The notes below the pieces were generated by a model. That model was not told where the DNA came from. It did not search any database and saw only the letters and a list, made by a program, of their open reading frames with translations. A program made the translations under genes and the position numbers. From the NCBI GenBank assembly GCA_947496605.1, contig CANMDF010000003.1:496001-560000 (forward strand): 64,000 nucleotides of DNA, read 5' to 3'. Positions 1-20,333 of this stretch are shown here, one piece after another; within the stretch, counting starts at the first letter, position 1; each line of letters opens with the position of its first letter. This stretch comes from an uncultured Paracoccaceae bacterium (lineage in GTDB: Bacteria; Pseudomonadota; Alphaproteobacteria; Rhodobacterales; Rhodobacteraceae).

Positions 1-959
1 CCTGAAGGCGTTGTTGCAATGTCATATGTGGCCAGAACGGATGCGGCATGTGCCGCTTCATCTTCATTGACAGTCGCAAAATCATCGGCATCCCGCGCCA
101 AGGTTGCAAGCGCCAACATCGAAGGTGTCTTACAGTCCAAACGCCCCATGCTGGAAACCGGCCCTTGCGTTGTCACCAATGCACCTGCCTTCATGCTTTC
201 AATCAGCGCTGGTGCGGCTTCTGGTTCTACCACAATCATACGCGGTGCATCGCCCCAGTAGTTGCGCAGGCTCTCTGCCAAGGCTGCGGCCAATCCACCC
301 ACACCTGCCTGCAAAAACACATGCGTCGGGACGCCATCATACTGTTCTGCAATCTCGCGGCCCATCTGGGTGTAACCCTCCATCACATGGAAGGGCAGTT
401 TGGTATAACCCGGCCATGATCCATCTGACAAAAGCTGCAAGTCGCTGTTCTCTGCCGCAACCGATGCAGCGGCCATACTTGCTTCATAATTTGCACCAGC
501 ACGCACGACCTCAGCACCTTTCGCACGCAAACGGTCTGCAAACCCTTCGGGTACAGTTTCGGCAAGATAGATCACAGCACGGGCGCCAAACACTGCTGCC
601 CCGGCAGCAAGTGACAATCCATGATTTCCGGCACTTGCGGCCACATAGCTTTTGCCGGTCAAAGCCTGCGACCATTCCACATCCGTTTCGCGCACAACAT
701 CAGCAGCATCGCGGGCAATCACATGGGCCGCACCCAGTGCCTTGAAGCTGCCTAATCCCATCCGGCTGCGTTCATCTTTAAGAAAAACCCGCCCAGCGCC
801 CATCTCTTGCGCGATCCCTGCGCATTCGGTCAGTGGTGTTGCTGCATGGACAGGGCACTGGTCTAACAAAAGGCTGACCGCGTCGGTATCAAAGGCATCG
901 CCGGGTTTTGGGTCAGCTAAACCAATGCCCCGTACCGTGTTATTGATGATTTCTGCCAT
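1..959 (-). CDS. PLP-dependent lyase, diaminopropionate ammonia-lyase/threonine dehydratase type (partial)
   Basis: The reading frame starts with ATG at 959 and stays open to the window edge, giving 319 complete codons; the C-terminus lies outside. The fold-type II PLP enzyme signature is visible: KDERSRMGLGSFKALGA around residues 61-77, with Lys73 as the likely Schiff-base lysine, an SAGNHG segment that would grip the cofactor phosphate, and AGVGGLAAALAE further on. Such enzymes eliminate ammonia from hydroxy- or diamino acids. The RMGLGSFKALG wording is closer to diaminopropionate ammonia-lyases than to IlvA. It is divergent from a DUF1989 gene and a polyamine-type transporter, which suggests nitrogen-compound catabolism; the exact substrate is inference. 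Confidence 0.8.
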   Translation of the reverse strand, partial: MAEIINNTVRGIGLADPKPGDAFDTDAVSLLLDQCPVHAATPLTECAGIAQEMGAGRVFLKDERSRMGLGSFKALGAAHVIARDAADVVRETDVEWSQALTGKSYVAASAGNHGLSLAAGAAVFGARAVIYLAETVPEGFADRLRAKGAEVVRAGANYEASMAAASVAAENSDLQLLSDGSWPGYTKLPFHVMEGYTQMGREIAEQYDGVPTHVFLQAGVGGLAAALAESLRNYWGDAPRMIVVEPEAAPALIESMKAGALVTTQGPVSSMGRLDCKTPSMLALATLARDADDFATVNEDEAAHAASVLATYDIATTPS

Positions 960-1107
960 AAGGTCGCCTATCTTACTTTTGCCGTTTCGATACGACGCTA
1001 ACTTTGGATAGTCGACATGTCTCTAAGAAATCTCTTGATCCTCAACCTATGGTCATTCGCATTCAGACAGCGCTAAGTTTCGGTAAACTCTATTCAGGTC
1101 ATAATCA

Positions 1108-1959
1108 ATGAAACCAGATCAGCCAGCCTTTGCACCACCAGCCGACGCCGATGCCCGCCGCCGCAAGCCTGCTGTGATCTGTTATCCAACGACTTCGCTG
1201 GCCCACCCTAACTTGGACGTAATGCAAGCCAGACGCGATGCCGCCACTCACCGCGATACCTGCATTGTCCCTGCGCGTGACGCGCGGTGCACGACCGTGC
1301 CTGCGGGCAGTTTTTTCCGTATTACCTGCCCGGATGGATCGCAAGTAGGTGACCTGAACCTCTGGGCCGCGGATGATCTGAACGAGCATTTCTATTCCGG
1401 TAAGACCCGCGCCTTGCACGGCACGCACCTCTCGACCGGCGACAGACTTTGGTCGCGGTTCCCGAAAATGCGGCCGATGGCGACGATTACCGAAGACACG
1501 TTAGATTGGTATGGCTGGGATGCGGACGGCGGATCAGTTCACGATGTAATCGGCACACGGTGTGATCCCTATACGGGGCGACTGCTGTCCGGTACGGACT
1601 ATCACTATTGCTGCCATTCGAACCTTACCCGTGCCTTGGCAGACCACATGCAAATGTCGTTAACCGAGGCGGAACCGTTTGTGCATGACGTATTGAACGT
1701 CTTTATGTGTACAGGCTTCACCGCCGACACCCATCAGTACTTTATGAAAGCCAGCCCGGTGCGTGCGGGCGATTATATCGAGTTCATGGCGGAAATTGAT
1801 TTGATCGTTGGTTTGTCTGCATGCCCTGGCGGGGACTGCGGGGATGAACACACATCGGACAAAGCGACTTGCCACCCGCTGGTTATCGATGTGTTTGAGA
1901 ATGACATGTCCTTTGCACGAGCCGAACCCAATGCTTACGATCAAAGCCATGGGCGATGA
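1108..1959 (+). CDS. DUF1989 (urea carboxylase-associated) family protein
   Basis: A 283-residue protein with the conserved features of the DUF1989 family: the CPDGSQVGDLNLW segment near residue 72, TRALHGTHLSTGDRL near 109, and a C-terminal SACPGGDCG followed by CHPL, whose cysteines and histidines could bind metal. Two DUF1989 proteins are known to form carboxyguanidine deiminase in guanidine degradation, but here there is only one copy and no carboxylase or allophanate hydrolase next to it. The substrate is therefore open. Just downstream begins a polyamine-type ABC transporter on the same strand and a PLP lyase diverges upstream, so an amine or guanidino compound is a reasonable guess. 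The start ATG has only a weak AGG element upstream. Confidence 0.8.
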   Translation: MKPDQPAFAPPADADARRRKPAVICYPTTSLAHPNLDVMQARRDAATHRDTCIVPARDARCTTVPAGSFFRITCPDGSQVGDLNLWAADDLNEHFYSGKTRALHGTHLSTGDRLWSRFPKMRPMATITEDTLDWYGWDADGGSVHDVIGTRCDPYTGRLLSGTDYHYCCHSNLTRALADHMQMSLTEAEPFVHDVLNVFMCTGFTADTHQYFMKASPVRAGDYIEFMAEIDLIVGLSACPGGDCGDEHTSDKATCHPLVIDVFENDMSFARAEPNAYDQSHGR

Positions 1960-2151
1960 TCTTCGAATCGATTCTTCGCACTATGCGTAAGAATAGGCCT
2001 TAACTGCGACGAGGTACCGCACAAAAACGGCCTCTGGACGCTTGGTTAACGCTAAACCGGGAAATCTGCTTGCATTACAAGGAACCATCGCCGTTACTGT
2101 GCCGACAACGAGTGGGAAACCCACCGGTATGAGACAATAGGGAGCCAATCT

Positions 2152-3252
2152 TTGGCTGACACACAGAACGACAACTCTTTCGTTGAATTCGAAAGAGTGC
2201 AGAAAAGCTATGATGGCGAAGTCCTCGTCGTTAAAGACCTCAACCTGCAAATGCCAAAAGGCGAGTTTCTGACAATGCTGGGGCCATCAGGGTCAGGCAA
2301 GACGACTTGCCTGATGATGCTCGCCGGTTTTGAGACTGCGACGCATGGTGATATCCGACTGGATGGGAAATCCATCAACGATATCCCGCCGCATAAACGC
2401 GGCATCGGAATGGTGTTCCAAAACTATGCGCTGTTCCCGCATATGACGATTGGTGAAAACCTGTCCTTCCCGCTGGAAGTCCGCAAAATGGGCAAGTCCG
2501 AGCGTGAAGAGAAAGTGAAACGCGCCCTCGACATGGTTGAGATGGGTGCGTTCGGCAATCGACGCCCGGCGCAATTGTCAGGTGGTCAGCAACAGCGTGT
2601 CGCTTTGGCCCGTGCGTTGGTGTTTGAACCCGAACTGGTCTTAATGGACGAACCTTTGGGCGCGCTGGACAAACAGCTGCGCGAAAAGATGCAGTTTGAG
2701 ATCACGCATTTGGCGCACAATCTTGGCATTACGACTGTGTATGTGACCCACGACCAAACCGAAGCGCTGACAATGTCAGACCGCGTTGCCGTGTTCGATG
2801 ATGGGCGCATTCAGCAGCTTGCCCCGCCAGATGAGCTCTATGAAGAACCACAAAACAGTTTTGTGGCGCAATTCATCGGCGAAAATAACACGCTCAGCGG
2901 TGTTGTGACCAAGATGGAAGGCGACAAATGCGTCGTGAAACTGGACAGTGGCGAAGAGATTGATGCCAAGCCAGTGAACGTCTCAAATGTAGGCGACCGC
3001 ACCACGGTGTCTATCCGCCCCGAACGCGTCGAAACTAACAAAGAGCGTTTGTCCAAAGATGCACATACGCTGAAGGCCGAAGTGCTCGAATTCATCTACA
3101 TGGGTGATATTTTTCGGACCCGGCTGCGTGTTGGGGACTCTGACGAATTCATCGTCAAAACCCGCAACGCACCTGACCAGCCACGGCTTCGCCCCGGCGA
3201 AATGATCGAGATTGGTTGGTTACCTGAAGATTGCCGAGCTTTGGACGCCTAG
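2152..3252 (+). CDS. Polyamine-type ABC transporter ATPase (PotA-like)
   Basis: A 366-residue ATPase using a TTG start at 2152, supported by an AGGGAG ribosome-binding site about 7 bases upstream. Walker A is GPSGSGKT at residues 44-51, followed by a Q-loop (FQNYALFPH), the LSGGQQQR signature, Walker B LVLMDEPLGALDK and the switch histidine in THDQTEA. A C-terminal TOBE-like domain (about residues 250-366) matches the PotA/spermidine class. It energises uptake through the two permeases at 4536-7416 with the binding protein at 3343. First gene of a four-gene operon following 192 bp of non-coding DNA after the DUF1989 gene. Substrate specificity cannot be read from the ATPase. Confidence 0.93.
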   Translation: MADTQNDNSFVEFERVQKSYDGEVLVVKDLNLQMPKGEFLTMLGPSGSGKTTCLMMLAGFETATHGDIRLDGKSINDIPPHKRGIGMVFQNYALFPHMTIGENLSFPLEVRKMGKSEREEKVKRALDMVEMGAFGNRRPAQLSGGQQQRVALARALVFEPELVLMDEPLGALDKQLREKMQFEITHLAHNLGITTVYVTHDQTEALTMSDRVAVFDDGRIQQLAPPDELYEEPQNSFVAQFIGENNTLSGVVTKMEGDKCVVKLDSGEEIDAKPVNVSNVGDRTTVSIRPERVETNKERLSKDAHTLKAEVLEFIYMGDIFRTRLRVGDSDEFIVKTRNAPDQPRLRPGEMIEIGWLPEDCRALDA

Positions 3253-3342
3253 CGCGACCAAAGCCTTGTCAAATTGGCGGCGCCAAGCCTGGTACGCGCC
3301 GCTACTCACTGCCAAAAACCAGGTGACAATGGGAGAAATGAA

Positions 3343-4458
3343 ATGAACTTTAAAAAACCAATTCTAGCGACGATGGCACTGGGCCTGTCCGCTGGATCGC
3401 TTGCGGCTGACGGCCACATGGCATCCGACATGACACTTGTCAGCTGGGGCGGTGCTTACCAGCAGTCTCAGATCAACGCCTATTCTGACCCCTATGTGGC
3501 GATGAACCCTGGTGTGACAGTGACTTGGGACGAAAGCTCTGCCGAAGCTGTGGCCAAACTGCGCGCCATGAACGAAGCAGGATCAATCACATGGGACGTG
3601 GTTGATGTTGTGGCAGCTGACGCGCTGCGCCTGTGCGACGAAGGCCTAGCGCTGGAAATCGACGCTGACGAAGTGCTGGCACCAGCACCAGACGGCACAT
3701 CTGCATCTGACGACTTTGGTGATCTTTTGGTTGGCGACTGCTTTATTCCGCAGATCGTTTATTCAACAACATTCGGTTATCGCACAGACATGGTGCCTGC
3801 CGGTGTAGACGCACCAAACGACATCTGTGATGTCTTTGACCTTGCCACGTATCCTGGCATGCGCGCGCTGGAAAAGCGTCCTATCAACAACGTCGAGTGG
3901 GCACTGCTGTGTGACGGCGTTGCAAAAGACGACGTCTATGACGTTCTGGCAACCGAAGAAGGCCAAGAGCAGGCACTTGCCAAGCTCGACACCATCAAAG
4001 ACAGCGTGATCTGGTGGTCCGCTGGTGCAGATACACCGCAGCTGTTGGCTGACGGCGAAATCTTCATGGGCTCTACTTACAACGGTCGTCTGTTTGCAGC
4101 GATCGAAGAGCAGGGCCAGCCAATCGGCATGATGTGGGACGCGCAGGTCTTTGACCTTGACGGCTGGATCATCCCAGAGGGTCTGTCTGATGAGCGTCTT
4201 GCACGCGCGTTGGACTTTGTTCGCTTCGCGACAGACACACAGCGTCTGGCGGATCAGGCCAAGTACATCTCGTACGGTCCTGCACGTTTGTCCTCTGCTC
4301 CACTTGTTGGCAACCACGCCACTTTGGGCATCGACATGGCGCAGCACATGCCAACAGACCCAAACAACGCCGCGAACACGTTCCTTTATAACTACGAGTT
4401 CTGGGCAGACTACCGCGATGACATCGACGGTAAGTTCCAAGCTTGGCTTGCACAGTAA
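3343..4458 (+). CDS. Periplasmic polyamine-type solute-binding protein (PotD-like)
   Basis: A 371-residue extracellular solute-binding protein. I chose the ATG at 3343 because a GGGAGA site lies 6 bases upstream and it opens a normal signal peptide (MNFKKPILATMALGLSAGSL, cleavage near Ala22); a longer in-frame start at 3274 would bury it. The mature part begins MTLVSWGGAYQQSQ, typical of the PotD/spermidine-putrescine family, which captures polyamines or related cations in the periplasm. It sits between the ATPase gene and two permease genes and is followed at once by a perfect stem-loop, which may keep its mRNA level above that of the permeases. The ligand is unproven. Confidence 0.92.
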   Translation: MNFKKPILATMALGLSAGSLAADGHMASDMTLVSWGGAYQQSQINAYSDPYVAMNPGVTVTWDESSAEAVAKLRAMNEAGSITWDVVDVVAADALRLCDEGLALEIDADEVLAPAPDGTSASDDFGDLLVGDCFIPQIVYSTTFGYRTDMVPAGVDAPNDICDVFDLATYPGMRALEKRPINNVEWALLCDGVAKDDVYDVLATEEGQEQALAKLDTIKDSVIWWSAGADTPQLLADGEIFMGSTYNGRLFAAIEEQGQPIGMMWDAQVFDLDGWIIPEGLSDERLARALDFVRFATDTQRLADQAKYISYGPARLSSAPLVGNHATLGIDMAQHMPTDPNNAANTFLYNYEFWADYRDDIDGKFQAWLAQ

Positions 4459-12596: not shown

Positions 12597-12646
12597 GAAA
12601 ATGGTGAGCCGTGATGGGTTCGAACCATCGACCTACTGATTAAAAG
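12597..12646 (-). repeat. Left attachment site (duplicated tRNA-Lys 3' half)
   Basis: Fifty bases identical to 20253-20302. They cover the tRNA from the anticodon loop to the encoded CCA (12602-12604 on the plus strand read TGG) plus 5 bases outside. The 5' half is missing, so this is a remnant, not a gene. Because the tRNA reads leftward, this copy is the chromosome's original 3' half, displaced by the insertion. The rest of the 12496-12828 stretch holds only this site and the arm-like repeat at 12773. Confidence 0.93.
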
Positions 12647-12772
12647 CCCGCACGGTAGCGTTTCGCCGCATTTCTCTGATTTTCGCTAAAACGACAAGAA
12701 GCATTTGAAAACATGCGTTTATGTTGACTTCGCTTGCGCTGTTCACACATGACTGACTCTAAAATTCGCCGT

Positions 12773-12796
12773 CAGTTGCTTCCGTATAGCTTCCGG
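12773..12796 (+). repeat. 24-bp subterminal repeat, possible integrase arm-type site (left)
   Basis: The sequence CAGTTGCTTCCGTATAGCTTCCGG (split: CAGTTGCTTCCG, TATAGCTTCCGG) differs at one base from 20169-20192 and has the same orientation. It contains a GCTTCCG half-site twice. It lies 127 bp inside the left attachment repeat; with its partner 60 bp inside the right one, both would flank the core in the circular form, as arm-type integrase sites do. Confidence 0.6.
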
Positions 12797-12828
12797 CGGC
12801 GAAAACGGTAGCAAGGGGTGTTCTAGTT

Positions 12829-14013
12829 ATGTTCAGGCTTACAAAGCGATCTGTCGAAGGGCTTACAGTCGAGGCTGAGGACTACTTTATCTGGGATCGC
12901 GACGTTCGCGGGTTTGGCCTGCGCACGTATCCGTCCGGCAAGAAGACCTATCTGGTACAATACCGCGCGGGCCGACGCACACGGCGCGTCACCATCGGAC
13001 AACACGGTATTCTCACCGCTGATCAGGCCCGAACAGAAGCAAAGCAGCTCTTAGCAGCGGTCGCGCGTGGGCAAGATCCATCCGCTATCCGTCATGCGAA
13101 ACGCCACGCGCCAACTATCGCGGGATTGTGTGACCGCTTTCTAGAAGAATACGTTGACCAGCACTGCAAACCGACCACTGCACGCGACTACCGCAGCATC
13201 ATCCGGCGGTTCATTCGCCCTCAGCTAGGACCCATTGCCATTGCCGAGGTGAACCGCGCTGACGTAGTGACTTTCCATCATGGCTTGCGGGAAACTCCAT
13301 ATCAGGCCAACCGTGCAGCCAGCATGTTATCCAAGTTGTTCAATCTTGCAGAGGATTGGGGATTGCGCCCTGCCGGATCTAACCCTGCCCGCAGGATTAA
13401 GAAGTTCCGCGAAGAAGAAAAGAAGCGGTATCTGTCTGACGTAGAGCAGATGCGGCTAGGCGAAACGCTTGTCGAGGCGCTGGAAGAGGGATCAGAGTCC
13501 ATCTATGCCGTTTCAGCGATCCTGTTGCTGATCTATACCGGATGCCGTCTCAGAGAGATTCTGACGTTACGCTGGGACTACGTGACCGCCCACCATCTTG
13601 AATTGCCAGACAGCAAAACCGGACGACGTCGCATTCCCCTCCCGCGCGAGGCCTATGACATTCTGTCCGAGTTACCCCGCGAGGAAGCCAACCCTTTTGT
13701 GATTGTGGGTGAAGTGCCAGGTGAACGGCTGATCAATCTGCAAAAGCCTTGGAACCGCATCCGAAGACGCGCTGGTATCTCCGATGTGCGGATGCATGAC
13801 CTGCGCCACACCTATGCGTCAGTCGCGATGAAGGACGGGATCGACCCGTTTACGCTGAAAGAGATTTTGGGGCACAAGAACCTGACCACGACTTTGCGGT
13901 ACGCACACTTGGCAGATGATGCAGTGCAAAGGGCGGCGGGGTCGGTTGCGGCGCGATTGGCGCGGGCGTTAAGATCCAAACCAAGTATTGGGGCTCTTCG
14001 AGCTGTTCGGTAG
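12829..14013 (+). CDS. int: Tyrosine-recombinase integrase (DUF4102/P4-type)
   Basis: A 394-residue site-specific recombinase. The N-terminus (about 1-90, with DRDVRGFGLRTYPSGKKTYL) is the arm-DNA-binding DUF4102 type, followed by a core-binding domain and the catalytic domain. Catalytic residues are all visible: Arg240 in TGCRLREIL, a lysine in DSKTGRRR, His323 and Arg326 in HDLRHTYAS, His349 in LGHKNL and the nucleophile Tyr358 in LRYAHL. It should cut and join at the tRNA-Lys repeats. It points into the element from the left end, the side away from the intact tRNA. Length and motifs suggest it is functional. Confidence 0.96.
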   Translation: MFRLTKRSVEGLTVEAEDYFIWDRDVRGFGLRTYPSGKKTYLVQYRAGRRTRRVTIGQHGILTADQARTEAKQLLAAVARGQDPSAIRHAKRHAPTIAGLCDRFLEEYVDQHCKPTTARDYRSIIRRFIRPQLGPIAIAEVNRADVVTFHHGLRETPYQANRAASMLSKLFNLAEDWGLRPAGSNPARRIKKFREEEKKRYLSDVEQMRLGETLVEALEEGSESIYAVSAILLLIYTGCRLREILTLRWDYVTAHHLELPDSKTGRRRIPLPREAYDILSELPREEANPFVIVGEVPGERLINLQKPWNRIRRRAGISDVRMHDLRHTYASVAMKDGIDPFTLKEILGHKNLTTTLRYAHLADDAVQRAAGSVAARLARALRSKPSIGALRAVR

Positions 14014-14106
14014 TTGCAATCGCACCATCATCGTAGAATTTAAGAAGGCAGGAGGCCCTCCAACAAGTCTCTGAGAATTTAGGATTGAACCGGAGACTGT
14101 AGGGCG

Positions 14107-14799
14107 ATGTCATTACAGAATTATGATAATTTAAGCATAGATGAAGTAAGAGGAGTGATTGAAAGCGATTTGTTCCCGCGCTTGGAACAAATCATCACAA
14201 TACCTGAGTTGCAAGAACATCGGCTTCATCAGCTTGCAAAGGACATTTTTAGATTTGTTGGGAGCACACTTGCGGCCCCCGAAATCGGATTTGTCGCACA
14301 ACAAAGAGAGTTTGATAGTCTACAGAAGTCGATCAGTCGAACGCTATCATCATTGGAAAAAATCAGTGCTGGAAACCGCATAGGTTTGGATCAAGAGGTC
14401 CTATACCGACCGCCTTTCAACGGTCGTTTTTACTTTGCCGAACAGTTGGAATACTGGGCCGCGAATGAGGACTCGGTCAAGAGAACGGAAGATCTACTCA
14501 AGATGCTGTCGTGGGCTGCCCAACGCCTCTCAGCAGAAAATCAGGACACATTGGCTTTGCGACGTGGCTCGAAGAGCAAAGATCTAAACTATTTCATATT
14601 CGATATGTCAGGGCACTTCGAAGAATGGACCGGTGCCAAGGCAAAATCCAAATGCTATTATAGTGCAGCAAGAGAGAACTATTCAGGCGAGTTCTTCGAC
14701 GTAGTTGTCTGTACTCTTCAGATTTTCGCTCCAAATAGTTTTCATAGCGAGGCCGCTCTGGGAAAGAGGATCGTTCGGTTGCTTTCGGAAAGGACTTAG
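14107..14799 (+). CDS. Hypothetical protein of the integrated element
   Basis: A 230-residue soluble protein that I do not recognise. It lacks a signal peptide and membrane segments, is helix-rich in its N-terminal half (IDEVRGVIESDLFPRLEQII), and has aromatic patches such as YRPPFNGRFYFAEQLEYW and CYYSAARENYSGEFFDVVV. It uses AT-rich codons (TTA, ATA, AGA) unlike the chromosomal genes, pointing to foreign origin. It lies 93 bp after int and 102 bp before the AlpA-like gene, the position where small elements often carry cargo. A role in defence or immunity is possible but nothing in the sequence proves it. Confidence 0.65.
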   Translation: MSLQNYDNLSIDEVRGVIESDLFPRLEQIITIPELQEHRLHQLAKDIFRFVGSTLAAPEIGFVAQQREFDSLQKSISRTLSSLEKISAGNRIGLDQEVLYRPPFNGRFYFAEQLEYWAANEDSVKRTEDLLKMLSWAAQRLSAENQDTLALRRGSKSKDLNYFIFDMSGHFEEWTGAKAKSKCYYSAARENYSGEFFDVVVCTLQIFAPNSFHSEAALGKRIVRLLSERT

Positions 14800-14901
14800 T
14801 AGTGCAAAAGGACACCTGAATCCTTTTATCTCAATCAACTGTCCTTTGAGAAAGTTGGGATTACGCCTCATTTTGCCATCATACGCAAAGAGGGAATTGC
14901 C

Positions 14902-15126
14902 ATGAAACATCTTAACTCAACTGACACCATCGACATGCGACTTGTTGACGAACGCGAAGCAGCAAGCATCCTTTGCTACTCCGTCCGCGCCTTGCAGAAC
15001 TGGCGACATCGCGGCGGCGGTCCTGACTTTGTAAAGGTATCCGCCCGGTCTGTCCGCTATCGCCGCACCGATCTGGACAAATGGGTCGCAGACCGCACCG
15101 TGTCCAGCACCTCACAAACCACCTAA
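14902..15126 (+). CDS. AlpA/excisionase-like helix-turn-helix protein
   Basis: A 74-residue DNA-binding protein of the MerR-like/HTH_17 type. The core reads LVDEREAASILCYSVRALQNW, shown in parts as DEREAASIL and SVRALQNWRHRGGGP, followed by SVRYRRTDLDKWVAD, the usual wing and second helix of AlpA and Xis proteins. Such proteins regulate the integrase or direct excision. It is followed by two strong hairpins before the replication-type genes, so it probably ends its own transcript. Small size and position in an integrase element support the call. Confidence 0.85.
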   Translation: MKHLNSTDTIDMRLVDEREAASILCYSVRALQNWRHRGGGPDFVKVSARSVRYRRTDLDKWVADRTVSSTSQTT

Positions 15127-15138
15127 CAATCAGTTTTG

Positions 15139-15172
15139 CCTCAGAGAGCTTGGCGGCACCTCTGAGGATTTT
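15139..15172 (+). terminator. Rho-independent terminator-like hairpin after the AlpA-like gene
   Basis: An 8-bp perfect stem (CCTCAGAG / CTCTGAGG) with a 13-base loop is followed by ATTTT, starting 13 bases after the stop codon of the AlpA-like gene. Structure and position fit an intrinsic terminator. Confidence 0.65.
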
Positions 15173-15195
15173 GGGGCCGGATCGGTCTTCAAACA

Positions 15196-15231
15196 GGGCG
15201 CGCGTTCCAAACGCGAGCGCGCGCCCTTTCT
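15196..15231 (+). terminator. Second strong GC-rich hairpin upstream of the rep module
   Basis: A 9-bp perfect stem (GGGCGCGCG / CGCGCGCCC) with a 13-base loop is followed by TTTCTT. It could be a second terminator. Since the next genes resemble a rolling-circle replication module, it could instead belong to an origin; sequence alone does not decide. Confidence 0.5.
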
Positions 15232-15264
15232 TGTGCCGTCTTCATAAACTGGAAGGAGATCAAG

Positions 15265-15498
15265 ATGAGTAACTCACCTATCAAAAAATTCAGGCTTGGC
15301 CTGATCACAGTCGCGATCTGGGACAATGACGGGTTCTACTCCGTCGATGTGTCGCGGTCCTACAAGGACAAGAACGGGGACTGGCAAAGCACTACCAGCT
15401 TTGCACATGGCGATCTCTTGAACGTCGCTAAATGCGCAGAGCGCGCGGAAATCTGGATTGGACGCCAGACAAATGACCAGCAATCGAAAGGAGCATGA
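15265..15498 (+). CDS. Small conserved mobile-element protein
   Basis: A 77-residue protein with KKFRLGLITVAIWDN near the start, then VDVSRSYKDKNGDWQ and TSFAHGDLLNVAKCAERAE. I know this pattern from small unnamed proteins found beside replication genes in plasmids and integrated elements; no activity is established to my knowledge. A good AAGGAG site precedes the ATG (15256-15261 region). Its stop codon is one base from the start of the Rep-like gene, so the two are expressed together, consistent with a helper role in replication. Confidence 0.75.
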   Translation: MSNSPIKKFRLGLITVAIWDNDGFYSVDVSRSYKDKNGDWQSTTSFAHGDLLNVAKCAERAEIWIGRQTNDQQSKGA

Positions 15499-15499
15499 A

Positions 15500-16861
15500 A
15501 TGAATATAGAAAATAGCCAACCCATTCGGCCCCAAAACCCTAGCCGCCCCGCCGGAGGCGCAAGTGCAGCTAATGACAACCATTCACCAGCAAGTGGCAG
15601 TGGCAAAAGGGGGGTGATTGTAGCACCCCCCTCTGGAAATACAGATAACCCTGATCTGCCCATCGTGCTGCATGTGGGTTTCGACACGCTGGCCTTGGCG
15701 ATTAAGGCCAACATTCCCGATGACCTGTTTGAACAACTGGATGCAGAGCAGAAAACCGCATCCGATGAACGACGCGAAGTTGTTGTGGTCTTGGAAGGCA
15801 TCACCTTCCTTTTGTCGCCGCATGGTGGCGCTGGCTATCGGTTCATCCTGAAAGGTGGGCAGGATGGTGCGACATGGTTTTTCAAGAAACCGAATGCCAA
15901 GGATAAGTGGGGCATCCGCCTGTCATTCGGATCGTTTTTTATGGCGATGCACGGACTAGGCGCAGCCAAGGCGCATGTAGATCACGTCACCGCGAAGCTC
16001 GGTATCAGGTTTGGGCTGGATGATGTCAGCATATCGCGCGCCGATTTCTGCGTCGATGTCTTGGCCCCTGACTTTGTCTTAAACCCAGATCGGTTTGTGA
16101 TGCATAGCAAGACAGGCCGTCGCGATCATATCACCACTGACGACATGGCGGTGCACGGCAAGTCGGGGCGGGTCACGTCCGTGACCATCGGAAGACCGCG
16201 CAATCGGCAGGTTATCGTTTACGATAAACGGGCGGAGGTGATCGCGCACAACAAGTCTTATTGGTGGCTGATCTGGAACCATACGTTACGTACGTACGTA
16301 GAGCGCGGAAACGGTCCAGTCGCCCTATGTAACGTAACGCTCTCACCAGACCCTGCGCACGTACGTGCAAACCGTGTCTGGCGAGTGGAGTTCCGGGCAG
16401 GCAAAGACCTGCTGAAAGATCGTTGGGGCATACGTACGTGGGAACAGTTCTTTGACCGCTTTGGCGATCTTTGCCGCGAGGCGGGCGAAGTCGTACGTTA
16501 CGTAGTACCTGACATGAGCGACCCGAACCGTGCGCGCTGGCCGAACCATGCGATGTGGGACATTGTTTGCGCTGAAATGAATGATGACCTGGTCGAAATG
16601 CGCAGCGGTGCCGATCCTAATCCGATGAAGGAAGTCCACCGTGAAGAACACATAGCGATGTTGTTCCGGAACCTTCTGGGGTCGAGCATTACGCTTGGGG
16701 CGTTGCATGGGTCAGACACGGACGGGTTGGTTGAGGTCTTCGATGATCTTGCGGCCAACATGAACGCAGAGGTCAAGGCCGATCCCGAACGCGCGGCCAA
16801 GCAATTGCAGGACGCAAAGGATAGGTACGTGTTCATCAAAAAGCGAAAGCCGTCTATGTAA
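15500..16861 (+). CDS. Replication initiation protein-like (Rep_trans type)
   Basis: A 453-residue protein. The ATG at 15500 is preferred over 15458 because AAAGGAG lies 7 bases upstream and the earlier start overlaps the preceding gene. A disordered Pro/Asn-rich N-terminus is followed by a domain with SISRADFCVDVL and TIGRPRNRQVIVYDKRAEV, the Asp-rich and YDK features of rolling-circle initiators of plasmids and filamentous phages, which nick one strand at the origin through a tyrosine. This would let the excised element replicate. The gene itself contains an unusual cluster of TACGTA-type palindromes. A relaxase-related role is the main alternative. Confidence 0.72.
   Translation: MNIENSQPIRPQNPSRPAGGASAANDNHSPASGSGKRGVIVAPPSGNTDNPDLPIVLHVGFDTLALAIKANIPDDLFEQLDAEQKTASDERREVVVVLEGITFLLSPHGGAGYRFILKGGQDGATWFFKKPNAKDKWGIRLSFGSFFMAMHGLGAAKAHVDHVTAKLGIRFGLDDVSISRADFCVDVLAPDFVLNPDRFVMHSKTGRRDHITTDDMAVHGKSGRVTSVTIGRPRNRQVIVYDKRAEVIAHNKSYWWLIWNHTLRTYVERGNGPVALCNVTLSPDPAHVRANRVWRVEFRAGKDLLKDRWGIRTWEQFFDRFGDLCREAGEVVRYVVPDMSDPNRARWPNHAMWDIVCAEMNDDLVEMRSGADPNPMKEVHREEHIAMLFRNLLGSSITLGALHGSDTDGLVEVFDDLAANMNAEVKADPERAAKQLQDAKDRYVFIKKRKPSM
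16281..16508. repeat. Cluster of TACGTA-type palindromes inside the rep-like gene
   Basis: Five related motifs lie in 228 bp: ATACGTTACGTACGTACGTA at 16281-16300, TATGTAACGTAACG at 16326-16339, the perfect palindrome GCACGTACGTGC at 16357-16368, TACGTACGTG at 16431-16440 and GTACGTTACGTAGTAC at 16493-16508. TACGTTACGTA occurs twice directly and partly once inverted. The codons used to spell them (CGT, ACG, GTA) are not those favoured in the rest of the gene, which suggests selection on the DNA itself, for example as Rep-binding sites. Confidence 0.6.
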
Positions 16862-16913
16862 TGTAACATAGGCCCGCATCAAACAGCTCAAAGCGCCTTA
16901 CATTATGTAGGGC
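16854..16913. repeat. Two inverted repeats at the end of the rep-like gene
   Basis: CTATGT-AATGTA-ACATAG at 16854-16871 spans the stop codon, and a second imperfect inverted repeat (GCCTTACAT / ATGTAGGGC) lies at 16895-16913. Both contain TAATGTAA or its complement, in opposite orientation. They may end rep transcription or take part in the origin. The remaining DNA to 17110 shows no clear gene. Confidence 0.45.
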
Positions 16914-17110
16914 TCTTTGGTGTGTCAGAGTGGGAGGGAAACCAACTCTTGCCGAGAGTGCAAAGAGGGATGCAAACTATGGTTGAGAGTTCTTGCAGTT
17001 TCTCTGGGCAAGATCTTGATCACTGGAGGGAGAAAATTATCGACAAGACAACCTAAAATTGCTGCGATATGTTTGAAACTCATTGGCGACATGTTGGAAG
17101 ACGAAGCAAA

Positions 17111-18808
17111 ATGCATCTTACCAAAATCGAGATTAGGGACTATCGGAGCATCGACTTCGCAGTGATCGAGAAAATTGATCGCTCAGTCACATTGATTGGT
17201 GCGAATAATGAAGGGAAGACAAACGTATTAAAGGCGATCCGACTAGGCTTGAGTTCTCTTGAAAATGTTCAATACAATCAGGTTTTCCGGCAATCTGGCA
17301 CCTTGCGTATCCGGCGCAGAGCAGATGACGAATCTTACAATTGGCTGTATGACTTCCCAGTAGCAAAGCAAGCTCCAAAGAAGGACCAATCAACGGTCAT
17401 TCGCTTGGAGTTCGATTTAGACAGTGCGGAGATCGAGAGCTTTTATTCTGCATTTGAAATTAAGATAAATGGAAAAATACCAGTAGTTTTAAAGTTTTCC
17501 CAAAGGGGACTTACGCTTGATATTCCAAAGCAGGGCAAGGGTAAGCCAGGCATACAAAAAAAGTTGACCGAAATTGCCGAATGGGTAAGTGAGAGGGTGA
17601 ACTTCACCTACGTACCGGCAATCAGAACAGCCGAGAATGCTCAGCAAATTATTGCGGGTCTGATTGAAAAGGCCATTAGGCAAGCCGAACAACCGATATT
17701 GGAGAAGGTACAGGATGATCTTATTGCCGCTAGGAGCAAAGCGATTTCGAATGCTGAGGATCAACTTGCGGATACGCTTAAGATGTTTGTCCCAGCAGTT
17801 CAGACGATCTCCGTTCGGGATATGTCGCCTAATCGTAGGTATCCAAGTCGTAGCGAGTACCTAATTGAAGTTGACGATGGGATTGCGACGCCGATTTTCC
17901 AAAAGGGTGACGGGATTCAAAGCCTAGCCACACTCGCGTTAATGCGTTCCCAAGCAGGGGATGGCTCTGTGGAGACATCATCAATTGTCGCCATTGAGGA
18001 GCCGGAAGCGCATCTACATTCAGATGCGATTCATCAAGTTAGGACGGTCATTTCGGAGCAACTTCCCAACACACAGGTTTTTGTTGCAACACACTCTCCA
18101 ATTTTTGTTCAAAGACGGAAGCTTGAATCGAACATAATCGTTCGTAGTTCTTCAGCGCAGCCCGCTAAATCACTGAATGAGATACGGAACGTTTTGGGCG
18201 TTCGTGCACCTGATAACTTGCATTCAGCGGCAGCAGTCCTTCTCTTGGAAGGCCAGACGGATTGCGATTTTTTCAGAAGGTACATTTGCAACTTAGATGG
18301 TGCGCTAGCGCAAAAGATTGAATCTGGTGAGTTACTTTTGATCGATATCGACGGCGCAGGGAATACCGAGTTTTATTGCCGCCATTACGCTGGGTTGTCT
18401 TGCGAGGTTTTTGCAATGCTGGACAATGACGCTAGCGGGCGACAATCGGTTGAGAATGCCATAGAAAAAGGGTTCCTTAGCCATTCGAACGCAGCTTTCT
18501 ATACGCATTCTATTCGTGTGTCTGTGGATTTGGAGGATTTGGCGAGCATTGAGCAGCAGCAACTGGCTCTCCAAAAGTTTGGGTTTGCAATCGATGAGGA
18601 ATTTGAGACGGGAAAGGGAAATTTTTCGAGCCGCCTCAAGGCTCTCGCGAAGCGACGCGGAAAAGCATGCGCCAGAACGACGGTTCATCAGGTCAAATTA
18701 GATGTTTGCTCAAGCCTGACAGAAAGTCACATTGTTGAAGATGAGGCATCCAAGGTTAGCCTCGATGCACTATTCGCCAAAATCGAGAAATTCTTCATAA
18801 AGAAATAA
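17111..18808 (+). CDS. OLD-family ATP-dependent endonuclease (ATPase plus Toprim)
   Basis: A 565-residue protein using ATG 17111, where the usual family start MHLTKIEIRDYRSI appears; an upstream ATG at 17069 would add 14 residues. The SMC-like ATPase has Walker A GANNEGKT at residues 30-37, a Walker B region AIEEPEAHLHS near 295 and VATHSP near 326. The C-terminal Toprim nuclease shows LLLEGQTD near 380 and MLDNDASG near 438. OLD nucleases degrade DNA in phage defence (P2 Old, GajA). No UvrD-like helicase adjoins it, so it is not a Gabija pair. AT-rich codon use marks it as acquired cargo. Confidence 0.88.
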   Translation: MHLTKIEIRDYRSIDFAVIEKIDRSVTLIGANNEGKTNVLKAIRLGLSSLENVQYNQVFRQSGTLRIRRRADDESYNWLYDFPVAKQAPKKDQSTVIRLEFDLDSAEIESFYSAFEIKINGKIPVVLKFSQRGLTLDIPKQGKGKPGIQKKLTEIAEWVSERVNFTYVPAIRTAENAQQIIAGLIEKAIRQAEQPILEKVQDDLIAARSKAISNAEDQLADTLKMFVPAVQTISVRDMSPNRRYPSRSEYLIEVDDGIATPIFQKGDGIQSLATLALMRSQAGDGSVETSSIVAIEEPEAHLHSDAIHQVRTVISEQLPNTQVFVATHSPIFVQRRKLESNIIVRSSSAQPAKSLNEIRNVLGVRAPDNLHSAAAVLLLEGQTDCDFFRRYICNLDGALAQKIESGELLLIDIDGAGNTEFYCRHYAGLSCEVFAMLDNDASGRQSVENAIEKGFLSHSNAAFYTHSIRVSVDLEDLASIEQQQLALQKFGFAIDEEFETGKGNFSSRLKALAKRRGKACARTTVHQVKLDVCSSLTESHIVEDEASKVSLDALFAKIEKFFIKK

Positions 18809-19016
18809 AAATCAACCATGCTCTGCGATGGTACGCTAGCCCTATGGAGGTATTCGGCACAATAGCTGCAAGAGGTAGTAGGATACACCTAGTCGGAGCG
18901 CTTGAAACAAGCATGCCGCACAGCAGCGTTTTATCTGAAAGCAAGCTTCCGCTCTAGGCGGTCAGCCGACTTGGGACAAATCAACTGCGCTCCTTCAACA
19001 AGACCCTCAAAAAAAC

Positions 19017-20039
19017 TCAATTGTTCATTCGCGGCCCCACTACGCGCGTTGGCAAACCCCTATCTGCGGTTTGCCCGCGCTTATGCGCCCGAACCCGCAC
19101 CACTTTCCCATTGGAATATCGTCTTTCATATTCGGCCACCCAATGCTCTATCGGGGTGGCTCGGCTTTCAGCTTGTGCCTCCTCAAAACGAAGCCTCGCT
19201 TTTTGTTCGGTCATATGCCGCTCGGCGGCAGGTCCAATTCGAATAGTGACGTGAGACTTAAGCGTATCGGTCATCCAAGATTTGCCGAATTTTCGTGCTG
19301 TCTTGAGCTGAGCGGTTGAGAGGCTTGGTATCTCTTGGGACAGCAGGTCGTCTTCCCGCGCAGCAAGAGCTGCAAAAAGCATAAAGCCTATTACCATCTC
19401 GTATGTGAGATGACCTTTATGCTCCTCGAAATAGTTCCTCACAGCTTCTTTACTGTCCAACAGTCCGAGCCGCATAAGTCCCGCAATTACGGTCCTTTGG
19501 AGTTGCCAACTGGTGTTATCAAAGTTGGGGCGACCATCTTGTGCTTTCGATATCTCAAAAACGAAGGGTGCATCAGCAAACATGGTGCCAGTCACGGCAG
19601 AGAAAAGACGCACGGTCAACTTTTCAGGTAACCGATTGTCAAAGAGGAACCCTCGCTGATGCCGGTTGTTCAATTCTTCCTCGCTAAGGGCTGTTATTCC
19701 TCGCGTTGCGCGATGTTCCCACAATTTCCGATCATCATATTCAATCCAAATGAGGTCACGCGGAAAGTCGACTTCTTTCACATAGCTTTGAATGTCGGAT
19801 TCCGCCCGTTGTTCCCATGGCATTCCTTGAACATCCATTCGCAAAGAATCGAGGTAATTCGCGGCATGATGGTCAAGCAAATAGATCCTCGCCGAGGCGA
19901 GATCGCTGAGAACGCTTTGCCAGTGCTGGCGGATGTCCTCAGACGAGACCAACTGCCCATCAGGGCCGGGCATGTTCCCCGGCTGCTCGTTGTCGAGATA
20001 GCGTCCGAACCTTAGGGCGATTGTCTTATAAAGGATCAT
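19017..20039 (-). CDS. Hypothetical protein of the integrated element, convergent with the OLD gene
   Basis: A 340-residue protein of unknown function. I start it at ATG 20039 (MILYKTIALRFGRYL); an upstream in-frame start at 20153 would add 38 low-quality residues. It has no signal peptide. The N-terminal 150 residues are acidic and helical; the tail is basic (VRVRAHKRG, then GLPTRVVGP), a type of ending also seen in phage-encoded unnamed proteins. It converges with the OLD gene across 208 bp and abuts the right end. Possible roles include a phage-interference factor or an element regulator; none can be shown from sequence. Confidence 0.7.
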   Translation of the reverse strand: MILYKTIALRFGRYLDNEQPGNMPGPDGQLVSSEDIRQHWQSVLSDLASARIYLLDHHAANYLDSLRMDVQGMPWEQRAESDIQSYVKEVDFPRDLIWIEYDDRKLWEHRATRGITALSEEELNNRHQRGFLFDNRLPEKLTVRLFSAVTGTMFADAPFVFEISKAQDGRPNFDNTSWQLQRTVIAGLMRLGLLDSKEAVRNYFEEHKGHLTYEMVIGFMLFAALAAREDDLLSQEIPSLSTAQLKTARKFGKSWMTDTLKSHVTIRIGPAAERHMTEQKARLRFEEAQAESRATPIEHWVAEYERRYSNGKVVRVRAHKRGQTADRGLPTRVVGPRMNN

Positions 20040-20168
20040 AGCCGTTACCCCACGCAGTGACACGAAGATGCCGTCTGCACGCAAAACGTGCAAGCAGTTC
20101 TGGGGGGTGTTTTGACGATTCGGGCGACTCGACTGGTGTTGCCCCAAAGCCACGCGGAAATTGCTATC

Positions 20169-20192
20169 CAGTTGCTTCCGTATTGCTTCCGG
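20169..20192 (+). repeat. 24-bp subterminal repeat, possible integrase arm-type site (right)
   Basis: It matches 12773-12796 at 23 of 24 bases in the same orientation and lies 60 bp inside the right attachment repeat. See the left copy for the reasoning. Confidence 0.6.
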
Positions 20193-20252
20193 ATATCAGG
20201 TCGCACGAAAAATCGCACGCGCCACTTGACGTAATTCATTGATGTAAAAAGT

Positions 20253-20302
20253 GAAAATGGTGAGCCGTGATGGGTTCGAACCATCGACCTACTGATTAAA
20301 AG
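20253..20302 (-). repeat. Right attachment site, inside the intact tRNA-Lys gene
   Basis: Fifty bases identical to 12597-12646. This copy forms the 3' half of the functional tRNA; it was brought by the element and restores the gene after integration. Confidence 0.93.
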
Positions 20303-20333
20303 TCAGTTGCTCTACCAACTGAGCTAACGGCCC
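20258..20333 (-). tRNA. tRNA-Lys (anticodon TTT)
   Basis: Seventy-six bases fold as a complete cloverleaf on the minus strand. The acceptor stem is GGGCCGT with ACGGCTC, the D-loop contains AGCTCAGTTGGTAGAGC, the anticodon arm is ACTGACTTTTAATCAGT with anticodon TTT, and the T-arm is GATGGTTCGAACCATC. CCA is encoded. Its 3' half doubles as the attachment site of the neighbouring element. Confidence 0.97.

Follow-up and report, generated by a model that had tools for sequence, protein, structure and literature searches.

What kind of element occupies the tRNA-Lys gene in a 64,000-nucleotide (nt) stretch of the genome of an uncultured Paracoccaceae bacterium (hereafter the window), and by what means is it copied and spread? 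The element covers 7,656 bp (12597-20252, the start-to-start distance of its terminal repeats) and is probably an integrative element that copies itself by rolling-circle replication when excised and carries anti-phage cargo. It belongs to a widespread, mainly Rhodobacterales family with common machinery and differing cargo, which is apparently undescribed; literature searches found no published description of the family, which is not proof of absence. From left to right, the element encodes an integrase, a 230-residue protein (X230), an AlpA-like helix-turn-helix (HTH) protein, a 77-residue protein (s77), Rep, an ATPase-TOPRIM protein, and a 378-residue protein whose gene is oriented opposite to the other six (Table 1).

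Table 1 Features of the tRNA-Lys element and positions in the window.
Feature	Position	Strand	Basis and remarks
attL at the outer left boundary, a piece of the 3' half of tRNA-Lys	12597-12646		50/50 identical to 20253-20302
Left integrase arm-type site (putative role), a pair of GCTTCCG units with 11-bp spacing	12773-12796		24-nt repeat, 96% identical to 20169-20192
Tyrosine integrase, 394 residues	12829-14013	+	PF00589, 2.2e-21; Arm-DNA-bind_3, 1.1e-15
X230, variable-slot protein, 230 residues	14107-14799	+	No family match; relatives in the integrase-AlpA gap of several loci
AlpA-like HTH protein, 74 residues	14902-15126	+	HTH_17, 1.6e-07; phrog_66 (excisionase and transcriptional regulator), 6.6e-09
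48-nt structured element with a covarying stem of 8-9 bp, a conserved loop, and the 3' tail TTTTGGGGCCG	15132-15179	+	Upstream of s77
s77, small strongly conserved protein, 77 residues	15265-15498	+	62-96% identity to 17 relatives
Rep, Rep_trans-like putative rolling-circle initiator, 453 residues	15500-16861	+	PF02486 in relatives; conserved residues
Conserved block starting CGGCCCCAAAA	15527-15559		Alignments; inverted repeat; weak minus-strand model match at 15527-15565
Candidate nick site/double-strand origin (or origin of transfer): 7-8 bp G/C stem, loop, then TCTGGAAATAC	15609-15642	+	
OLD-type AAA ATPase with TOPRIM domain, putative anti-phage nuclease, 579 residues	17069-18808	+	AAA_15, OLD-like_TOPRIM; PADLOC
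Cargo protein, 378 residues	19017-20153	-	No meaningful family match; pieces of a relative beside tRNA-Lys in G030 (L083)
Right integrase arm-type site (putative role)	20169-20192		Repeat of 12773-12796
attR, tRNA-Lys 3' half plus 5 nt	20253-20302		Repeat search
tRNA-Lys(ttt), intact	20258-20333	-	ARAGORN; Rfam RF00005, 74.8 bits

A repeat search of the window yielded the two perfectly identical 50-bp sequences that bound the element. The tRNA-Lys(ttt) is the sole tRNA that ARAGORN found in the window and is supported by Rfam; since it lies on the minus strand across the right boundary, the right repeat is its 3' half with 5 additional nt and the left repeat is a tRNA fragment. A genome-wide search with the 81-bp right end listed one perfect match over its full length and a second for its first 50 bp, at the left end; three further matches reached 76-81% identity. 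The repeats, the position of the tRNA and the PF00589 integrase bear out two claims of an earlier note on this DNA, namely that a precise 7.66-kb element with identical 50-bp ends sits in tRNA-Lys and that one repeat completes the tRNA while the other is a remnant. A duplicated tRNA 3' half at the far end with an integrase inside is the arrangement of a tRNA-targeting tyrosine-integrase element. The integrase, the HTH protein and the ATPase-TOPRIM protein could be named by profile, and the other four proteins had no meaningful family match in Pfam, PADLOC, PHROGs or NCBIfam. No recognisable capsid gene was found among the window proteins in the same scans, as the note had stated. Beyond its description, the element carries the AlpA-like HTH protein, the 77-residue protein, the OLD-type ATPase-TOPRIM gene, the 378-residue gene, the arm-type repeats, and two hairpins. 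The G+C content is slightly below that of the surroundings in places, chiefly over X230 and the ATPase gene.

The family was assembled from a genome scan with Rep, which gave 28 loci that by record titles are mainly from Rhodobacterales and more remotely from sphingomonads. Addition of loci found with the pattern of the hairpin at 15609-15642 gave 40 non-redundant loci including the window, with L113, L115, and L125 dropped as coming from the same genomes as L045, L057, and L055. A duplicated tRNA 3' end around Rep delineated 29 of the 40. A further 17 loci, retrieved through the covarying 48-nt hairpin, contributed 8 delineated elements, giving a total of 37 among 57 loci, with tRNA targets Thr (11), Met (11), Lys (10), Arg (4), and Asn (1). 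Among the 20 undelineated loci are some that are cut off by the end of a contig, some in which the stretch contains no tRNA, and some that look decayed. The common backbone is integrase, variable gene, AlpA-like protein, 77-residue protein, Rep, cargo, and tRNA, and the layout that the note had called an unusual minimal plan is the standard plan of a family. The average size and standard deviation (SD) of 24 core elements among the first 29 are 8,140 and 602 bp, with L060, L061, L118, L119, and L120 omitted as remote. One locus, L062, lies in a record labelled as the cyanobacterium Tolypothrix campylonemoides and holds an alphaproteobacterial-type Rep and hairpin; this record is probably contaminated.

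Integrases and Reps differ in how they relate to the insertion target. On the integrase tree of 29 elements, the tRNA target changed 6 times, compared with a shuffled mean of 15.5 (none of 200 shuffles as low), whereas on the Rep tree of the same number of elements it changed 13 times against 15.3 (18 of 200 as low). The integrases track the tRNA target and the Reps hardly do. Celeribacter neptunius illustrates this with two elements, L053 in tRNA-Arg and L054 in tRNA-Lys, that have nearly the same Rep and differing integrases. Several elements can also coexist: G211 (L161-L163) and G272 (L164-L166) each hold three, two of those in G211 being 97% identical over 3.2 kb, and in L045 the main element has, a few kb away (574-3462), a distantly related further pair of integrase and Rep that is accompanied by a hairpin variant of its own.

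As judged from its sequence, Rep resembles the Rep_trans (PF02486) rolling-circle initiators. PF02486 gave matches in 5 of the 26 aligned members, the best at 3.1e-5, and matches below its cut-off over roughly the same region in 7 of 10 divergent Reps; four of the ten are also among the 26. Asp182, Tyr241, Lys243, and Glu297 are kept in all 26 aligned members, Asp62 in all 24 with a letter at that position, and Glu246 in 25 of 26. By eye, these residues correspond in order to the catalytic Y-x-K-x2-E motif and three acidic residues. For MobT and Rep_trans proteins, three metal-binding acids, a catalytic tyrosine, and its K and E neighbours have been reported in that order (PMC6499999, PMC4797284). 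The matches of the relatives together with the conserved catalytic-type residues uphold the rolling-circle-like Rep of the earlier note, with the window Rep itself matching no library. Pfam detected no N-terminal HTH family in the window Rep, which thus differs from the MobT layout of HTH plus PF02486. The Rep frame is open from a TTG at 15458, and a GTG at 15665 is a candidate start, as several relatives start after the hairpin; many relatives have a start codon immediately ahead of the catalytic region. A profile search of the PDB gave no credible name for Rep (best E 0.14, fibrinogen).

Between s77 and the Rep core, the hairpin sequence GGGGGGTGATTGTAGCACCCCCCTCTGGAAATAC provides a candidate nick site. 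Its pattern has a single match in the window, with 0 expected by chance. When up to 6 mismatches are allowed, 38 of the 40 non-redundant loci have the hairpin near Rep; the two exceptions are L061 and L058, the latter with a Rep that begins at the end of the contig. The hairpin is kept although Rep drops to 28% identity. A stop in the Rep frame lies within or after the hairpin in 12 of the 38 loci (in one of these, L122, possibly from a broken Rep), and the spacing between hairpin and Rep core falls into each of the three phases; the conservation is therefore that of DNA and not of protein. With one mismatch allowed, the pattern gave 21 sites, spread over 20 of 390 genomes from the order; all of these sites adjoin a Rep relative (one a short piece), and a backward control gave 0. 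A looser pattern without mismatches matched the window's genome, one congener, and nothing else in a class-wide draw of 385 genomes, despite which the sphingomonad loci L059 and L060 carry variants of the hairpin. In all 14 loci with a Rep 29-35% identical to that of the window, the same place is taken by a comparable GC-rich inverted repeat whose loop is related. The strict search gave no hairpin in L175, whose hairpin (L159) is imperfect, and blastn gave none on plasmids, though its low-complexity filter may hide such letters. For comparison, the nick that MobT makes in ICESt3 falls between the two arms of an inverted repeat that is GC-rich and 7 bp long (PMC9371924).

The second hairpin, the 48-nt element upstream of s77, is distinguished by covariation. 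It is present in all 29 loci with a tblastn match to s77 and also in L053. Covariation was assessed on 26 of the 29 loci that have one length (19 distinct sequences), leaving out L050, L051, and L124 (49 nt). All 152 base-pair cells are paired, the covariation value of 0.885 compares with 0.236 (SD 0.041) for shuffled alignments (0 of 500 as high), and sliding the pair partners lowers the pairing to approximately 55% or less. Apart from the count of pairs changed on both sides, the other four of the measures exceed the shuffles. G-U pairs are present, so that an RNA or the plus single strand is favoured as the folding molecule. Rfam had no match at 15132-15179. Across the same 390 genomes, a covariance model found 37 sites in 32, with one weak site, in G213 (29.9 bits); of 30 sites examined, an AlpA relative was located at 30, Rep at 29, and s77 at 28. 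The sequence CGGCCCCAAAA at 15527-15537 is an exact inverted copy of TTTTGGGGCCG at 15169-15179, and the pair flanks s77. From its position, s77 is proposed to be a DNA-processing helper of Rep, and its resemblance to PC4/OB-fold single-stranded-DNA binders is an impression of ours. A name for s77 was rejected, as there was no PDB match and no meaningful Pfam match.

The ends of the elements carry repeated GCTTCCG units. In 19 of 21 tRNA-Lys/Thr elements, a left pair lies 129-151 nt inside attL; the exceptions, L118 and L119, have no units on either side. The right ends of these 21 elements have a pair in 16, a single unit in 2, and none in 3. Across all 37 elements, the unit occurs at 27 left ends, 21 right ends, and in 3 mid-element controls. 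The units are most simply read as putative arm sites of the integrase, and the AlpA-like HTH protein is a probable excisionase/regulator. The gap between the integrase and AlpA genes holds, in most elements viewed, one uncharacterised protein of approximately 210-370 residues, with several unlike-looking families in this common place. The protein of this slot is perhaps a regulator or immunity gene product.

One cargo gene of the window element is of a defence type. AAA_15 (PF13175) matched the OLD-type protein above its cut-off (3.2e-25) and OLD-like_TOPRIM (PF20469) just below (1.2e-4, 23.0 bits, cut-off 23.2), and PADLOC gave Old (4.9e-29) and GajA (3.5e-25). The combination of an ABC-type ATPase and a TOPRIM domain is that expected of a predicted OLD-type nuclease. 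The PADLOC scan covered all seven window proteins and, over 27 of the 37 elements, one or two cargo proteins each, chosen as large or recognisable and hence biased; L038, L044, L053, L054, L055, L061, L122, L163, L169, and L175 lay outside it. A match with E ≤ 1e-8 was obtained in 21 of the 27 elements, three of them weak (L052, L165, L173). Single matches are hints and not systems, given the breadth of many PADLOC models, which are general profiles for ATPases or methyltransferases. The matches comprise type IIG/ISP and other methyltransferases, a retron II-A reverse transcriptase with its partner, AriA/PtuA-like proteins, PDC-S06, and PDC-S46; Dsr1, ZorA, NsnB-like proteins, PDC-M30/M41, and a type I methyltransferase; and ZorB, DRT, AbiU, IetS, and further methyltransferases.

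Several observations weigh against a self-copying, defence-carrying element. No excised circle was seen, and neither flank pieces nor joined flanks revealed a clean empty site. No free plasmid form was found: of 72,556 plasmid records, 5 contain Rep relatives, and these range in size from 0.3 to 1.25 Mb. A PF02486 match above the cut-off of 29.6 bits was not obtained: the window Rep had no match in Pfam, PADLOC, PHROGs, or NCBIfam, and the relatives in the divergent set scored 16.1-24.1 bits. Two residues ahead of the catalytic tyrosine, where RepDE has Arg189, 24 of 26 members have Ile and the other 2 Thr, and the hairpin loop does not have the CT'AA of MobT/Rep_trans nick sites. For the 48-nt hairpin, 6 of 8 pairs changed on both sides, a count that 317 of 500 shuffles also attained. 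With the covariance model it was not credible in 10 other loci without s77, and therefore it is not needed by every member. The tRNA-Arg elements L053 and L057 have no arm units, though their integrases cluster with those of the Lys/Thr elements. As for cargo, 6 of the 27 scanned elements had no PADLOC match (L039, L043, L116, L170, L063, L042), an AcrB-like pump (L042) and a thermolysin-like protease (L063) are of non-defence type, and autotransporters were found in L044 and L054 by a Pfam scan only.

The anatomy of the element suggests the following cycle. The integrase and the AlpA-like directionality factor would recombine attL and attR, with the arm sites just inside the ends, releasing a 7.66-kb circle and leaving the tRNA whole. 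Rep would then nick one strand in the loop of the conserved hairpin at 15609-15642 through its Rep_trans-type tyrosine Tyr241 and start rolling-circle replication, in which s77 may assist in the manner of the OB-fold helpers of MobT relaxases. The 48-nt structure would be either the single-strand origin of the displaced strand or a leader RNA through which s77 and rep are controlled; the inverted TTTTGGGGCCG/CGGCCCCAAAA pair around s77 would suit either role. The circle or a single strand would reach new cells, where it would integrate into the same tRNA, and the likeliest route, which is a guess, would be mobilisation by a helper conjugation system with Rep as the relaxase. Cargo slots vary among the elements and would be exchanged, and in the window element the OLD-type ATPase-TOPRIM protein would protect the host cell and, with it, the element.

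How such an element travels is where the alternatives diverge. The note had stated that the element has no mobilisation genes; this may not hold, because MobT, a protein of Firmicutes elements that is related to Rep_trans, acts as a relaxase. We favour mobilisation with Rep in that role by analogy to streptococcal elements (PMC5704250, PMC7563843), giving it less than an even chance. It is doubtful, but worth serious weight, that the element is an integrative plasmid only, in which Rep maintains the circle and spread relies on transformation, vesicles, or generalised transduction and not on dedicated transfer. No coupling-protein or type IV secretion system family was found among the element's proteins in Pfam, PADLOC, PHROGs, or NCBIfam, and most MobT relaxases of integrative conjugative elements are reported to have the N-terminal HTH that was not detected here (PMC6499999, PMC9371924). 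The occurrence in many genera, 12 of 139 by the first hairpin and 18 of 139 by the second, suggests instead an efficient transfer route.

Packaging by a helper phage would be another route, with the element as a satellite resembling the phage-inducible chromosomal islands (PICIs) or RS1, having Rep and the AlpA-like protein as its replication/excision module and no structural genes of its own. The int-AlpA-Rep layout, the defence cargo, and the fairly narrow size of the core elements would fit packaging. We consider this improbable: relatives of Rep and s77 and the hairpin were found neither in IMG/VR nor in 50,697 phage records (absence from collections being weak evidence), and the window proteins contain no packaging family save a weak match of the AlpA-like protein to phrog_57 (terminase small subunit, 2.5e-4). 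It is very unlikely that the element is immobile, a stranded genomic island with integrase and Rep as relics. Relatives of this kind exist, in that G024 and G030 are decayed, L103 has a mere short piece of Rep, and L061 has 4.6 kb and no hairpin; the window element has open backbone frames, two intact att copies, and conserved arm sites and hairpins. A bolder reading, to which we give less than an even chance, is that of an undescribed alphaproteobacterial class of defence-distributing elements. In this class, a Rep_trans-like protein would act as both replicase and relaxase and nick the near-invariant hairpin, the covarying 48-nt hairpin (as a single-strand origin or a copy-control RNA pairing across s77) would run the cycle, exchanged integrase cassettes would retarget the element to a different tRNA, and Zorya-, DRT-, retron-, and Dsr1-type cargo would be swapped on a common replication core.

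Parts of this plan are familiar from other elements. Proteobacterial carriers of anti-phage systems are mostly discussed as prophages, satellites, or conjugative islands. The P4-like and PICI satellites carry defence hotspots and an AlpA-like regulator; the window element is like them in its integrase, its AlpA-like regulator, and the swappable anti-phage cargo, and unlike them in that no packaging genes or virome presence were found for it. Actinomycete elements of the pSAM2/SLP1 type combine int, a small excision factor, Rep, a tRNA target, and an FtsK-like transfer protein. The first four are common to the window element, and Pfam found no FtsK-like transfer protein among its seven proteins, unlike an actinomycete integrative conjugative element.

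The closest likeness in overall design is to the streptococcal Rep_trans/MobT integrative mobilizable elements, which are small and have a tyrosine integrase, one Rep_trans/MobT-related initiator, and variable cargo (PMC5704250, PMC7563843). Those are from Firmicutes, whereas the present elements are alphaproteobacterial, target tRNAs, have an AlpA-like factor and s77, contain a Rep below the PF02486 cut-off, and have a presumed transfer route only. The origin-of-transfer/MobT systems of ICESt3, Tn916, and ICEBs1 resemble the present element in small helper proteins (a proposed one here) and in a short GC-rich inverted repeat near the initiator gene, whose loop is the nick site (a candidate one here) (PMC9371924, PMC6499999, PMC12614216); here there is no type IV secretion system, coupling protein, or Rep N-terminal HTH found, no CT'AA in the loop, and only an impression of an OB fold in s77. 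The rolling-circle plasmids of the pT181 family share the Y-x-K-x2-E motif, the three acidic residues in the same order, and a hairpin origin; they are free staphylococcal plasmids, whereas the present element is integrated, has an integrase, and does not conserve Arg189 (PMC4797284). Small integrative elements with Rep_trans-type initiators are thus already known in Firmicutes, and the two conserved nucleic-acid elements described here seem new. The Charybdis elements were rejected as a match, being archaeal and having, in the accessible part of the paper, no replication gene recognised (PMC12324425), and nothing similar was seen in the accessible part of a report on Sulfitobacter mobile elements (PMC13386836).

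If the proposed cycle is true, it adds a compact anti-phage carrier with its own rolling-circle initiator. The invariant and covarying hairpins are sequence handles by which such elements can be located in unannotated draft genomes; of 390 genomes from the order, the former picked out 20 and the latter 32. It also becomes testable how an 8-kb element without a recognised transfer gene moves, and uncharacterised genes in the cargo slots, such as that for the 378-residue protein, become defence candidates.

The insertion site was compared with congeners, using one genome per species. The 998-bp tRNA-dapF region was matched nearly whole in 33 of 35 congeners and weakly in G001 and G025. G005, G008, and G018 have an intact tRNA-Lys without a second copy within the fetched 7.9 kb, and the gene to the left of the window's element lies there approximately 5 kb away, across an apparent sugar-transporter operon (read from protein beginnings only). 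This layout is compatible with insertion in the window, yet it is no clean empty site. For L055, the joined flanks searched against 54 genomes gave one weak junction match, in G793, with 41 nt of left flank and several mismatches; those of L115 (the same as L057) gave none in 19 congeners (20 genomes with the element's own). The earlier note had read the perfect repeats as a sign of recent insertion. This reading does not hold, because 32 of the 37 delineated members, the window included, have perfect repeats of up to 67 nt, and dating by repeat identity was rejected.

A second tRNA 3' half was found in at least 5 of the 35 congeners (G003, G011, G014, G024, G035). In G003 (L084, 1016-2610) and G024 (L088, 9333-10914), it lies approximately 1.5 kb from tRNA-Lys. 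These two are relatives without a full int or rep that still have the duplicated half, a situation that the note had regarded as contrary to its reading; the G024 case is explicable by a decayed element, because L088 retains a 26-residue piece of a related integrase. In L083 (G030:C6), int, rep, and a second tRNA half were not detectable in the fetched 14.3 kb. At 12613-13219, beside tRNA-Lys, this locus keeps a remnant of the 378-residue gene with its middle missing, and it is a decayed related element.

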